A program made the position numbers and the translations under genes. Shown one piece after another: positions 32,620-37,779 of a stretch of 64,000 bases of DNA (position 1 is the first letter of the stretch; every line of letters starts with the position of its first letter). Source of the stretch: Sideroxydans sp. CL21 (GTDB taxonomy: Bacteria > Pseudomonadota > Gammaproteobacteria > Burkholderiales > Gallionellaceae); contig NZ_LR699166.1 of the NCBI RefSeq assembly GCF_902459525.1, positions 2,740,501-2,804,500 of the forward strand. Direction: 5' to 3'. A model generated the notes under the pieces. It saw only the letters and a list, made by a program, of their open reading frames with translations, was not told where the DNA came from and made no database searches.

Positions 32620-34179
32620 GTGCAACTACCTGTTATCAACAATACTGCAAGCGTCCCTCACCCCAACCCTCTCCCAGAGGGCGAGGGAGCAAACGAGGCG
32701 CTGCGCGCAACTTCCAAATCCAGCGGCTGTTCCGCCGGATCGTGCGGCTCAACCGACGACCAGATGGGCCATCTGCCGGAGCATATCCGCCAGAAGGTGT
32801 TCAACCATCCCTGCTATTCCGAAGAAGCGCATCACTACTTTGCTCGCATGCATGTGGCGGTCGCGCCTGCTTGCAACATCCAGTGCAATTACTGCAACCG
32901 CAAGTACGACTGTGCCAACGAGTCGCGTCCGGGTGTTGTTTCCGAATTGCACCATCCGGTACAGGCAGTAAAGAAAGTCTTGGCTGTCGCCGCAACCATT
33001 CCACAAATGACGGTGCTGGGCATTGCCGGCCCCGGTGATCCTTTGGCCAACCCCGAGCGCACATTTGAAACTTTCCGCATGCTGTCCGAGCAGGCACCGG
33101 ACATCAAGCTGTGTGTTTCGACCAACGGCCTGTCGCTGCCCGAGCAGGTCGAGCAGTTGTCGCAGTACAACATTGACCACGTGACCATCACCATCAACTG
33201 CGTCGATCCTGATGTGGGCGCGCAGATCTATCCGTGGATCTTCTGGAAGAACAAGCGCATCAAGGGACGCGAGGGTGCAGCCATCCTCATCGAGCAGCAA
33301 CAGAAGGGACTGGAAATGCTGGTGGCCAAGGGCATCCTGGTCAAAGTGAATTCGGTGATGATTCCCGGCGTGAACGATCAACATCTGGCCGAAGTCTCGA
33401 AGATCGTCAAAGCCAAGGGCGCTTTCCTGCACAACGTGATGCCGCTGATCTCCGAAGCCGAGCATGGCACCTACTACGGCCTGACCGGCCAGCGCGGACC
33501 GACCCATGACGAGCTGCAGGCGTTGCAGGATGCCTGTTCCGGCGACATGAACATGATGCGCCACTGTCGTCAGTGCCGTGCCGATGCAGTCGGGCTGCTG
33601 GGCGAGGATAGAGGCTCCGAGTTCACCATGGACAAGATCGAAGAAATGGACATCAACTATCCGGAAGCGATGAAGATGCGCGCCGAGGTGCATGCCGCCA
33701 TCAACGAAGAACTGGAAAGCAAACGACTGGCCAAGGAAACCAAGGTACAGCTGGTCAGCATCCAGGGCGTCCAGAAGAAAGAAGTCACGCGTCCGGTGTT
33801 GATGGCGGTCGCCACCAAGGGCGGCGGCGTGATCAACGAGCACTTCGGCCATGCCAGCGAATTCCTGATCTACGAAGCGTCGTCGGAAGGAGTGCGTTTC
33901 ATCGGCCACCGCAAGACCACGCCTTACTGCGAAGGCGGTGATACCTGCGGCGACGGCGAGAGCGCGCTGGACAAGACACTCAAGGTGCTGGCCGGTTGCG
34001 AAGCCGTACTGTGCAGCAAGGTCGGCTACGAACCCTGGGGGCCGCTGGAAGCAGCAGGTATCCAGCCCAACGGCGAGCATGCAATGGAAGCCATAGAGGA
34101 AGCTGTACTCAAGGTGTACGAAGAGATGCGCGTGGCGGGCAAGCTGGAGCCGAAATTGGAAGCACAGAAGGTGGCTTGA
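32620..34179 (+). CDS. nifB: NifB, radical SAM FeMo-cofactor core synthase
   Basis: The GTG start at 32620 is set by the sigma-54 promoter at 32571 and by CCGGAGGACACATC directly before it. About 519 residues. The radical SAM motif CNIQCNYCNRKYDC (C-x3-C-x2-C) is near residue 85, and the C-terminal 130 residues form a NifX-type cofactor-binding domain (LMAVATKGGGVINEHFGHAS). NifB fuses two Fe-S clusters with a SAM-derived carbide to give NifB-co. Residues 12-31 (VPHPNPLPEGEGANEALRA) are encoded by a dispersed palindromic repeat inserted before the family's usual GCSAGSCG region. Confidence 0.96.
   Translation: MQLPVINNTASVPHPNPLPEGEGANEALRATSKSSGCSAGSCGSTDDQMGHLPEHIRQKVFNHPCYSEEAHHYFARMHVAVAPACNIQCNYCNRKYDCANESRPGVVSELHHPVQAVKKVLAVAATIPQMTVLGIAGPGDPLANPERTFETFRMLSEQAPDIKLCVSTNGLSLPEQVEQLSQYNIDHVTITINCVDPDVGAQIYPWIFWKNKRIKGREGAAILIEQQQKGLEMLVAKGILVKVNSVMIPGVNDQHLAEVSKIVKAKGAFLHNVMPLISEAEHGTYYGLTGQRGPTHDELQALQDACSGDMNMMRHCRQCRADAVGLLGEDRGSEFTMDKIEEMDINYPEAMKMRAEVHAAINEELESKRLAKETKVQLVSIQGVQKKEVTRPVLMAVATKGGGVINEHFGHASEFLIYEASSEGVRFIGHRKTTPYCEGGDTCGDGESALDKTLKVLAGCEAVLCSKVGYEPWGPLEAAGIQPNGEHAMEAIEEAVLKVYEEMRVAGKLEPKLEAQKVA
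32655..32711. repeat. CCTCACCCC-type repeat inside the nifB coding sequence
   Basis: CCCTCACCCCAACCCTCTCC...GGGCGAGGGAG, followed by a short CGCTGCGCGC hairpin. It lies downstream of the ribosome-binding site and GTG of nifB and is read in frame as PHPNPLPEGEGANEALR. Confidence 0.9.
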
Positions 34180-34203
34180 GGTTGGCATCCGTACCAAAAG
34201 TGT

Positions 34204-34251
34204 CCCTCATCCTCATTCCCTCTCCCACCGGGAGAAGGGTTGGGACGAGGG
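34204..34251. repeat. CCTCA-type repeat in the nifB-fdxN spacer
   Basis: A diverged palindromic copy (CCCTCATCCTCATTCCCTCT...GGGAGAAGGGTTGGGACGAGGG) between nifB and the ferredoxin gene. It would fold strongly in the operon mRNA. Confidence 0.85.
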
Positions 34252-34291
34252 AACACTCGATCAGTGAAGCATATTGAACAAGGAGCGCATC

Positions 34292-34546
34292 ATGGCACTC
34301 GAAATCATCGAATCCTGCGTCAACTGTTGGGCATGCGAACCGCTGTGCCCGAGCAAGGCGATCTACGAAGCAAAGCCGACTTTCCTGATCGACCCTGACA
34401 AGTGCACCGAATGTGCGGGCGATTTCGAGGACCCGCAGTGCGCCACCATCTGTCCGATCGAAGGCGCGATCCTCAACGAGGACGGCGAGCCGATGAACCC
34501 GCCCGGCTCGCTTACCGGCATCCCGCTGCAAAAACTGGCGGCCTGA
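34292..34546 (+). CDS. fdxN: nif-associated 2[4Fe-4S] ferredoxin (FdxN-type)
   Basis: Start ATG 34292 (MALEIIESCVNC) has AAGGAGCGCATC before it. 84 residues. The cluster motifs are CVNCWACEPLCPSKAI (C-x2-C-x2-C-x3-C) and CTECAGDFEDPQCATICP, where the longer C-x8-C loop is typical of nif-linked FdxN/FrxA-type ferredoxins. Such a ferredoxin next to nifB is thought to supply electrons or clusters for NifB and nitrogenase. It is the second gene of the nifB operon. Confidence 0.9.
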   Translation: MALEIIESCVNCWACEPLCPSKAIYEAKPTFLIDPDKCTECAGDFEDPQCATICPIEGAILNEDGEPMNPPGSLTGIPLQKLAA

Positions 34547-34558
34547 GAAAACTCGGTC

Positions 34559-36432: not shown

Positions 36433-36455
36433 ATTTCATTATCTGGAGCACTCGC

Positions 36456-36740
36456 ATGCCTAAGTCCAACGTCACTTTTGAAAAACTCGGCATCACCGTC
36501 TCCGTCCCGGCCGGTACCCGCCTGATCGAGATCTCCGAGAAAGTCGGCGCCAGCATCACCTACGGCTGTCGCGAGGGTGAATGCGGCACCTGCATGATGA
36601 AGATCACTTCCGGCATGGAGAACATGAGCCAGCGTTCGGTGCTGGAAGACAAGGTGCTGCAGGAGAACATGGCCGGACGCAATGACCGTCTTGCCTGCCA
36701 AGCACAGGTACTGGGCGGCGAGATCAGCGTAAAAGCCTGA
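36456..36740 (+). CDS. [2Fe-2S] ferredoxin
   Basis: Start ATG 36456 ([12 protein letters not shown]) with TGGAG 8 bases before it. 94 residues, plant-type fold. Cluster ligands are in [11 protein letters not shown] (C-x4-C-x2-C) and the final Cys in RLACQAQ. The sequence before this ATG in the same frame derives from the repeat and is not used. It is a soluble electron carrier in the nifB operon, perhaps for the flavodiiron protein or nitrogenase. Confidence 0.88.
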
Positions 36741-36774
36741 CTATTTTTTTATAACTACTGCAGGAGTAACAGCA

Positions 36775-37134
36775 ATGCCTAACATCACTTTTTCCAGCCC
36801 GTTGCACAAGGACAAGACGGTGTATGCCGTCGCAGGCAGCCACACCACGACCGTGCTGACTCTGGCCAAGGATAACCACATCCCCATCGATTTCGGCTGC
36901 GGGGACGGCGAATGCTCGACTTGTCTGGTGAAGGTCACCAATCTTTCCAACAAAGGCCCGATGGGCGGTCCGTTGACCGATCGCGAGATCAGCGTGCTCA
37001 AGGAATCCGGCAAGATCACCAAGGCTCAGATCGACGCCATGAAGGTCAACGATGTCGTCACCACCGAATGGCGTCTGGCTTGCCAAATGGTATTGCGTGA
37101 CGAAGATCTGCTGATCGAGTATCCCAGCAAATAG
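36775..37134 (+). CDS. [2Fe-2S] ferredoxin, nif-type with C-terminal extension
   Basis: 119 residues. Cluster ligands are CGDGECSTC and RLACQM. Between them is an insert (KGPMGGPLTDREISVLKESG) typical of nif-linked FeSII/FdxB-like ferredoxins rather than the general carrier type. It follows the other [2Fe-2S] ferredoxin after 34 bases, with CAGGAG before the ATG. Related FeSII proteins can shield nitrogenase from O2 by complex formation; whether this one does is unknown. Confidence 0.85.
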   Translation: MPNITFSSPLHKDKTVYAVAGSHTTTVLTLAKDNHIPIDFGCGDGECSTCLVKVTNLSNKGPMGGPLTDREISVLKESGKITKAQIDAMKVNDVVTTEWRLACQMVLRDEDLLIEYPSK

Positions 37135-37143
37135 GAGGACATC

Positions 37144-37779
37144 ATGCGGACCGACGTCATGCTCAGGCAGCAAAAAGCCCCTCTCTCTAACTCTCTCCCG
37201 CAAGCGGGAGAAAGGACGAACGCGAAAGGCAATCTTCAAATCCCGGGCCTGTATGCGGAACTGATGGCGCATGCAGCCGGATTGCCGAACGATGAATTGT
37301 TTGCGCAGATGATTTCCAGCCAGATCGACGGCATAGGCGCGTTGCCACCGGGGCTCGGACTGGATGAGAAGGATTTTCACACCTTGCTGACACAGCATTT
37401 CCCCGGTGAGGTGCTGGTGATCCGTTGCGCAAAAAATATTGCCGATCCTCGCGCACTGGAACGCGACGATGTCCTCGGGCTGCTGCTCGCACACCGTGCC
37501 CACAGAAACATGTCGGAAGAATGGATGGCGGAGATCGTTACCGCAGCCTGCATGGCCAGCGACCATCTGTGGCAAGACCTGGGGCTGTGGTCGCGCGACC
37601 ATCTCAGCCGTTTGATGAACCAGAATTTCCCCTCGCTTGCGGCCAAAAACGTGCACGACATGAAGTGGAAGAAATTCATCTACAAGCAATTGTGCGAACA
37701 GGAGGGCATCAATGCCTGCCGCTCCCCCAGTTGCGAATACTGTGCGGATTATTTGAATTGCTTCGGGCCTGAGGAATAG
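37144..37779 (+). CDS. nifQ: NifQ, molybdenum donor for FeMo-cofactor
   Basis: 211 residues. The NifQ signature C-x4-C-x2-C-x5-C is complete near the C-terminus (CRSPSCEYCADYLNC); it holds the Mo-Fe-S cluster that passes molybdenum to NifEN/NifH. The ATG 37144 has a strong GGAGGACATC site. Residues 11-26 (KAPLSNSLPQAGERTN) are encoded by a dispersed repeat that lies after the start codon and must therefore be translated. The conserved domain begins at about residue 32 (QIPGLYAELMAHA). Confidence 0.93.
   Translation: MRTDVMLRQQKAPLSNSLPQAGERTNAKGNLQIPGLYAELMAHAAGLPNDELFAQMISSQIDGIGALPPGLGLDEKDFHTLLTQHFPGEVLVIRCAKNIADPRALERDDVLGLLLAHRAHRNMSEEWMAEIVTAACMASDHLWQDLGLWSRDHLSRLMNQNFPSLAAKNVHDMKWKKFIYKQLCEQEGINACRSPSCEYCADYLNCFGPEE
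37178..37216. repeat. CCTC-type repeat inside nifQ
   Basis: CCCCTCTCTCTAACTCTCTC...AAGCGGGAGAAAGG, a diverged copy within the first 25 codons of nifQ, read as APLSNSLPQAGERTN in the same frame as the copies in nifB and the ArsC-like gene. Confidence 0.85.

Follow-up and report, generated by a model that had tools for sequence, protein, structure and literature searches.

How does a palindromic repeat come to lie inside, and to be read as part of, genes for nitrogen fixation? The question is raised by a stretch of DNA from Sideroxydans sp. CL21 (contig NZ_LR699166.1, positions 2,740,501 to 2,804,500; 64,000 nucleotides, hereafter the window), a relative of iron-oxidising bacteria whose genome forms one contig of 3.77 Mb; Sideroxydans and Gallionella are among the named records of the best NifB matches. 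The nif operon of the window, in the order nifB, 4Fe-4S ferredoxin, TIGR01616 ArsC-like gene, flavodiiron-like gene, two 2Fe-2S ferredoxins, nifQ and draG, holds five copies of one repeat, three of them intragenic (nifB, ArsC-like gene, nifQ) and two in spacers. A sequence-only reading of the window had taken the intragenic copies, translated in one frame, for protein-coding palindromes of the kind known from Rickettsia. We consider it likely that the repeat is a non-autonomous mobile palindrome resembling repetitive extragenic palindromes (REPs) or miniature inverted-repeat transposable elements (MITEs), with few stops and with insertions that survive in disordered tails and linkers.

Five repeat copies cluster in the nif operon

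The repeat follows the consensus CCCTCACCC-YAA-CCCTCTCCC-loop-GGGMGAGGG, with a core of 39 nt, full units of ~70-75 nt and frequent inverted doublets of 80-107 nt. All five operon copies located by the sequence-only reading were recovered (Table 1). A 21-nt core pattern with up to three mismatches matched five times in the 64-kb window and not once in 100 shuffles; two of these matches, at 4372 and 56997, lie outside the nif operon, and the operon copies at 34203 and 37178, too diverged for the pattern, were matched by R1, a covariance model built from 27 repeat copies (E=6.3e-5 and 9.1e-7, whole genome). Five separate units within 4.6 kb, a span picked after the data were seen, were reached anywhere in the genome by 2 of 20,000 random placements (61 repeat clusters), and the five units of the nif operon form a cluster. 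With their flanks, these copies are predicted to fold into hairpins of -18 to -35 kcal/mol, consistent with the earlier suggestion that they place hairpins in the mRNA. An Rfam scan of 32500-37900 brought no family to its gathering score, and a mir-150 match, which at 24.9 bits stayed under its cut-off of 55, was taken as chance.

The intragenic copies are insertions with empty sites in relatives

Relatives free of the repeat lack the corresponding residues, which bears out the proposal that the repeat was inserted in coding sequence, adding a peptide near the N-terminus of NifB and NifQ and in the C-terminal tail of the ArsC-like protein. The nifB site is occupied in 5 and empty in 18 of 23 same-genus or same-family loci, a count that leaves aside the more distant L184 and L185; the NifB-tail repeat is present in L160, L161, L171, L172, L182 and L034 and absent from L031 and others. 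Of 80 nifB loci scanned with R1 at E≤0.01, 11 had matches, 14 in total; only in L032 and L034 do these fall directly before nifB, the other matches being counted irrespective of genes. The ArsC-like gene is occupied in 4 of 23 loci and empty in 19, with one insertion point shared by L163 and L180, a second in L162, a third in L161 and a fourth in the window. L158, the closest relative for this gene, has an empty site and an uninterrupted tail, and in the window the original tail (AKPxPSPES) picks up again after the insert, a unit bearing a mini-palindrome, TGGGCATGCCCA, at its 5' side and a hairpin, CTCGCTACGCGAG, at its 3' side. The nifQ insert occurs in L158, L162 and L169 among the five genus loci that reach nifQ, in L037 among six named-record loci, and also in L298, L300 and L314; its site is empty in L036, L038, L181 and others.

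The three inserts translate as PHPNPLPEGEG (nifB), PHPCPLPQAGEG (ArsC-like) and PLSNSLPQAGER (nifQ), in one register and as originally quoted. A ribosome-binding site and a start codon precede the repeat in nifB (GGAGGA, GTG at 32620) and in nifQ (AGGAGGA, ATG at 37144), as the sequence-only reading had noted. Relatives out to Methylococcales loci share the NifB N-terminus (V/M)(Q/E)LPV(I/L)N, and an SCGS motif after the insert is common to relatives; in NifQ, the sole methionine between the repeat and the conserved core is that of MAHAAG, and starting there would cost conserved residues. The inserts thus appear to be translated: judged from the sequence, the nifB copy must be, and the nifQ and ArsC-like copies very probably are.

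It might be argued that translation really begins downstream of the repeats or that the open reading frames (ORFs) are miscalled. Our genes were called with a simple home-made dicodon caller whose starts are rough (that of nifB was placed 90 nt too early), and REPs at annotated N-termini are reported to lie frequently outside the true gene (PMC3733652). Against such an artefact stand the conserved NifB start and pre-repeat residues, the ribosome-binding site and start before the NifQ repeat, and the mid-gene insertions between conserved flanks in MetG and PolA described below. On these sequence comparisons the artefact is excluded for NifB, MetG and PolA, and as a general account we regard it as highly improbable.

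The inserts of NifQ and the ArsC-like protein are predicted to sit in disordered tails. In AlphaFold2 models, NifQ residues 14-30 have a predicted local distance difference test score (pLDDT) below 50, with means of 43-47 over residues 11-30, and residues 131-171 of the ArsC-like protein score 47-62 (131-140 below 50, the remaining tail 54-62); the cores mostly exceed 90, the exceptions in NifQ being one ten-residue block (82) and the C-terminus (57-73). A PDB search with NifQ found no relative. NifB structures in the PDB match from residue 48 or 62 onward, after the insert, which probably also lies in a disordered tail.

Genome-wide, the family is read in every frame

Across the 3.77-Mb genome, R1 gave 121 rows at an E-value limit of 1, and tightening the limit to 0.01 left 73 copies. 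This strict set served for frames and stops; end tags, doublets and a first gene placement used a set of 76 that adds three weaker rows (E 0.02-0.06) and omits 3034291 (E 0.017) and opposite-strand duplicates. Thirty-six of the 73 strict copies lie inside 24 called genes, 22 of which match a protein family, four of them (the uvrD, addA, minD and hsdR types) with scores below the cut-off. These hosts are uvrD type, polA (2 copies), hrpA (5), metG (3), mutS type (2), mfd (2), recJ, yoaA, addA type, an ABC-F gene, an RlmN-like gene, hpnE, cobB, nifN (2), fliI (2), minD type, mpl (2), hisH, hsdR type, nifB, the TIGR01616 gene and nifQ. With ~86% of the window coding and 36 of 73 copies in genes, genes are under-hit, as expected if most in-gene insertions are harmful.

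Among the 36 in-gene copies the three sense frames are used 10, 7 and 9 times (chi-square p=0.76) and the antisense strand 10 times; excluding the copies in two host genes without a family match (47 and 173 aa) leaves 8, 7 and 9. All three sense frames are stop-free in 48 of the 73 copies. In nifN of the same genome, two copies are read in another register, as PPPQPSPGGRG and NPPPVGEG. The comparison with relatives thus sustains the insertions that the sequence-only reading had proposed, and the frame count and nifN registers contradict its single frame as a family trait: the shared register of nifB, the ArsC-like gene and nifQ is real, yet not a property of the family.

Of 274 genomes sampled from the class, 101 hold R1 matches; the survey scored 24 candidates per genome, making its copy numbers lower bounds. 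Such reach implies that the family is old or spreads horizontally.

As a side observation, 7 of the 22 family-assigned hosts serve in DNA repair or replication (uvrD, polA, mutS, mfd, recJ, yoaA and addA types), a count that carries no background rate; a similar tendency has been reported for other REPs (PMC3733652). One ORF with two repeat copies inside, G000:C1:704394-706889 (L122), matches ABC-transporter ATPases over residues 1-200 and then MutS from 199, and looks like an unusual fusion or rearrangement.

Frame and palindrome at occupied sites

Sites outside the nif operon show what becomes of an insert. In MetG, 4 of 30 rows (our genome and L267-L269) carry an insert after FKQLC and 26 are uninterrupted. 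The peptides read LTPTLSHGERG, PTPPNLPLSGEE and LTPSPSPGGRG, with only LPSPASGRG retained in L269; the registers differ, and the stem sequences differ yet stay palindromic. One old insertion event is likely, because all four occupied rows share the altered flank PLNF, and at this site the peptide changes while the open frame and the palindrome persist. In PolA, repeat-like residues were recognised by eye in 15 of 30 rows; the insert, at residues ~280-312, falls between the 5' nuclease match (ending at 271-277) and the Klenow match (starting at 330), that is, in the interdomain linker.

Paired changes in the stem were counted in 34 in-gene copies; of the full 36, a truncated copy and that of the 47-aa ORF were dropped, and the count covers no intergenic alignment. 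Both sides had changed at 4 of 9 pairs, a value as high in 1 of 500 shuffles, and 10 cells showed paired changes, a number matched in none of 500 shuffles and compared with 0-3 in slid controls.

In nifB, the proportion of nonsynonymous differences (pN) was 0.04-0.23 in the inserts against 0.02-0.06 in the NifB core, and that of synonymous differences (pS) was below core pS in all 10 valid pairs; rows with L172, in which the NifB core is out of register, were ignored, and codons were few throughout. The nifQ insert had 0 or 1 synonymous change where the gene had a pS of 0.38-0.63 (three full-length comparisons, again with few codons). The insert peptide is more relaxed than the protein, and the repeat DNA is more alike than the surrounding gene; this pattern could result from homogenisation, from re-insertion at a later time or from a constraint on the nucleotides.

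These results bear on the idea that the hairpins act in the nif mRNA, regulating stability or translation of the operon, with translation of the repeat incidental. In favour of such a function are the presence of five units in a single operon (two in its spacers), their predicted structures, the paired changes that maintain the stem and the few synonymous changes in the nifQ insert. However, presence varies among close relatives (L158 has no ArsC-like copy, and the nifB copy is absent from 18 of 23 loci), and the family is spread genome-wide through unrelated genes. We therefore consider an RNA-level function unlikely.

A subfamily with a preferred register

The nifQ copy belongs to a subfamily, type B, with a ~70-nt unit that matches in 30 of 34 genus genomes. 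We examined 88 loci of 193 matches (L296-L323 and L326-L385), mostly the best-scoring; similarity between species is 85-96% for the best dispersed copies and falls to 75% for weaker ones. Half of the loci (44 of 88) lie in called genes, representing 28 host clusters, although at least four of these calls (L299, L344, L351, L370) are short or weak. Counted by reading the peptides, the registers are PLSNSLPQAGE-like in 28 copies, PSPQSSPASGRG-like in 11, LSRKRE-like in 2 and antisense in 3. Type-B copies in genes are thus sense in 41 of 44 cases and in 26 of 28 host clusters; between co-directional genes antisense copies number 27 and sense copies 8, or 19 and 8 after removal of duplicates. The register bias is partly explained by members with CTAAC, in which TAA closes one sense frame. 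It is not fully explained, and type B is where the single-register idea has most merit.

A Rickettsia-type protein-coding palindrome would have one preferred frame and a peptide itself tolerated or selected. The nifB, ArsC-like and nifQ inserts across the genus use the PHPNPLP/PLSNSLPQAGE register, as do the 28 type-B copies, nearly all type-B copies in genes are sense, and pN lies below pS in the nifB insert, all of which speak for such an element. The family-wide frame counts speak against it, as do registers that differ between species at the MetG site, at the NifN site (our genome and L375) and in host cluster L305/L322, and the TAA-closed frame accounts for part of the bias. On balance, we doubt that the repeat is of this type. 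It resembles Rickettsia palindromic elements (RPEs) in placing in-frame palindromic inserts in unrelated genes (PMC10969869, PMC3733652), with empty sites in relatives for NifB, NifQ, the ArsC-like protein, MetG and PolA only. Unlike RPEs, it occurs in a free-living lineage and is read in all sense frames and antisense, a preferred register existing within type B only; RPEs are described as ending in CGTC (PMC3733652), while the copies here are mostly untagged. Nor is Rickettsia the sole precedent, as had been supposed: reports of intra-ORF REPs cover many bacteria (PMC3733652), and repeat-unit ORFs have been described in enterobacteria (PMC2759123).

Nesting of a unit within another unit's hairpin loop was seen in 11 of the 88 type-B loci (L301 and L303 being one locus in two species). 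This arrangement, hard to explain otherwise, points to mobility in which hairpin loops are to some degree preferred. Genes also contain a second repeat family, represented by ACTAGCCATTCGACTAAGCCCGCAAGCGGGCGAGTCGCTGGTTA and its variants, which is often nested in the first. It sits inside the first in nifQ of L162, L169 and L037, and was also seen at the end of the ArsC-like gene in L033, in the NifN-like host of L375 and beside the fliI copy G000:C1:3039401.

Mobility and relation to known palindromes

Twelve of 14 multi-copy clusters contain opposite orientations, with 38-68 nt between neighbouring starts. A number of doublets have the ends CCCTCACC / GGTGAGGG, which single units lack. Aligned to look for target-site duplications, occupied and empty sites showed diverged flanks; a possible ACGGC repeat was seen by eye at the ArsC-like site of L180.

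Size, palindrome, dispersal and inverted doublets would suit a classical REP family moved by a REP-associated tyrosine transposase (RAYT). Among 76 copies, CTAC, the complement of GTAG, occurs near the left end in four; GTAG itself is near none of the ends, CGTC near five and its complement GACG near three. The genes for RAYTs are said always to be flanked by REPs (PMC2817692). None of 31 Y1_Tnp (PF01797) loci, taken with ~1.5 kb on each side from this genome and 7 of 10 other repeat-rich genomes, holds an R1 match at E≤0.05, and the other three repeat-rich genomes (G107, G154, G277) have no Y1_Tnp match. Given these tag counts and this Y1_Tnp search, mobilisation by a RAYT is very unlikely.

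REPIN doublets are palindromes in alternating orientation. The clusters here alternate likewise, as do bacterial interspersed mosaic elements (BIMEs; PMC2817692), but unlike for BIMEs and REPINs the Y1_Tnp search of this and the 10 repeat-rich genomes revealed no cognate RAYT. The dispersed 20-40 nt stem-loop typical of REPs is present in 73 copies, with a 9-bp stem showing paired changes. GTAG/CGTC REPs (Di Nocera et al. 2013, PMC3733652) are similarly described as short dispersed palindromes that form dimers and are in some cases fully intra-ORF, and their hosts resemble those found here in including DNA polymerase I, UvrD/Rep helicases and tRNA synthetases; in our family these tags are rare or absent, no Y1 transposase is nearby and the core is another one, and the main text of that paper names neither Gallionella nor Sideroxydans. 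The enterobacterial small mobile sequences RU-1/2/3 are also MITE-like, intragenic and with open frames, at a greater reported length of 103-168 bp (PMC2759123).

A proposed mobile element and the limits of frame indifference

Taking these observations together, we propose that the family acts as a non-autonomous mobile element that would insert with little regard for reading frame. As most copies are stop-free in all three sense frames, an insertion of suitable length could be read through, and insertions would last where extra residues are tolerated, as in the disordered tails of NifQ, the ArsC-like protein and probably NifB and in the PolA interdomain linker. Older units may also receive new ones in their hairpin loops, as though loops were targets; transposition would be the route and loop targeting the mechanism. 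At occupied sites the frame would remain open and the peptide be free to change, with the palindrome kept through paired changes. The inserts probably have nil or small effect on nitrogen fixation.

Several points weigh against this proposal. Of the 34 copies, 21 leave stem pair 21-35 unpaired, pair types are no more numerous than after shuffling, and a one-column slide gives a covariation score of 0.102 against 0.098 for the true stem; with these counts included, the two stem arms inside genes still look coupled. The nifQ insert has no synonymous change in 13 codons where the gene pS is 0.63 (window-L037), and such low synonymous divergence is not predicted by simple neutral inheritance. One register in the nifB, ArsC-like and nifQ inserts, which comprise at least six separable events, is unlikely under pure frame indifference (~0.004 for three equal frames, a hand estimate made after the fact), and the nearly uniform sense orientation of type B in genes suggests that properties of the peptide or mRNA may matter. 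Finally, no transposase (in a search limited to Y1_Tnp PF01797), clean target-site duplication or movement was found.

The kind of event, REP-like palindromes inside ORFs, is already known; what is unusual is its extent, frame freedom and nesting. Keyword searches of the literature with repeat DNA words and peptides, and with nif plus palindromes or repeats, judged from the papers listed, gave no description of the repeat family and no such nif-gene inserts, and this family and its frame freedom seem new. More tentatively, the copies may belong to an undescribed, widespread class of RAYT-independent, loop-inserting palindromes that are translatable in almost any frame and decorate dozens of housekeeping proteins in the Gallionella/Sideroxydans lineage, among them the nitrogenase cofactor assembly proteins NifB, NifN and NifQ, the palindrome being kept alike across species while the peptide drifts.

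Occupied and empty sites of NifB, NifQ, PolA and MetG across ~30 sister genomes offer a natural experiment on where essential enzymes accept 15-35 additional residues and on the survival of a palindrome within coding sequence, and nesting in hairpin loops renders the route of mobilisation testable. With 101 of 274 class genomes, the reach of the family is far wider than the nif case, and protein stretches of the PHPNPLPEGEG type should warn annotators that they can derive from repeats.

Table 1 Repeat copies and genes of the window (positions within the 64,000 nucleotides)
Feature	Position	Strand	Evidence
Repeat copy outside nif operon	4371..4409	+	R1 E=9e-10
nifB CDS (coding sequence), GTG start	32620..34179	+	TIGR01290 nifB 651 bits, above cut-off; start conserved among relatives
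Repeat unit in NifB N-terminal tail (VPHPNPLPEGEGANEALRATSKSS)	32653..32724	+	core 32654-32692; R1 E=2.9e-11
Repeat copy, nifB-ferredoxin spacer	34203..34254	.	R1 match 34213-34252, minus strand, E=6.3e-5; predicted hairpin -35.4 kcal/mol
4Fe-4S ferredoxin-like gene	34292..34546	+	Pfam Fer4; YfhL-like below cut-off
ArsC-like nitrogenase-associated protein	34559..35074	+	TIGR01616 170 bits
Repeat unit in ArsC-like C-terminal tail	34950..35036, ends approximate	+	core 34962-35003; empty in L158
Flavodiiron-like protein	35071..36342	+	ODP beta-lactamase and flavodoxin domains
Repeat copy, spacer before 2Fe-2S ferredoxin gene	36378..36436	+	R1 match 36378-36416, E=3.2e-11
2Fe-2S ferredoxin	36456..36740	+	Pfam Fer2
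Second 2Fe-2S ferredoxin	36775..37134	+	Pfam Fer2
nifQ CDS	37144..37779	+	PF04891 NifQ 196 bits
Full-length type-B unit in NifQ N-terminal tail (PLSNSLPQAGERTNAKGNLQI)	37175..37246	+	copy 37178-37219; empty in some relatives
Inverted doublet, same repeat family, intergenic	56980..57073	.	R1 matches both strands; 21-nt arms 100% complementary

Other repeats in the window

The window holds further repeats. Another palindrome, CGTCATTCCGGCGAAGGCCGGAATCCAG, lies at 24016-24134, as an inverted doublet, and at 41202-41247, and, as such repeats are defined in PMC3733652, resembles a CGTC-tagged REP. A dispersed repeat, CCTTCGACAAGCTCAGGGCGAACGG, occurs at 2881-2907, 5988-6080 and 14816-14844, once as an inverted pair with 21 nt between. 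Three direct 300-nt repeats span 19180-21219, the second 87% and the third 81% identical to the first. Positions 1240-1268 and 38677-38705 share, in opposite orientations, a 29-nt stretch that contains a GAACGAACGTTC palindrome, the latter copy directly preceding an ORF at 38742 that we take to resemble LexA/UmuD, the palindrome being, on that assumption, possibly an SOS box.

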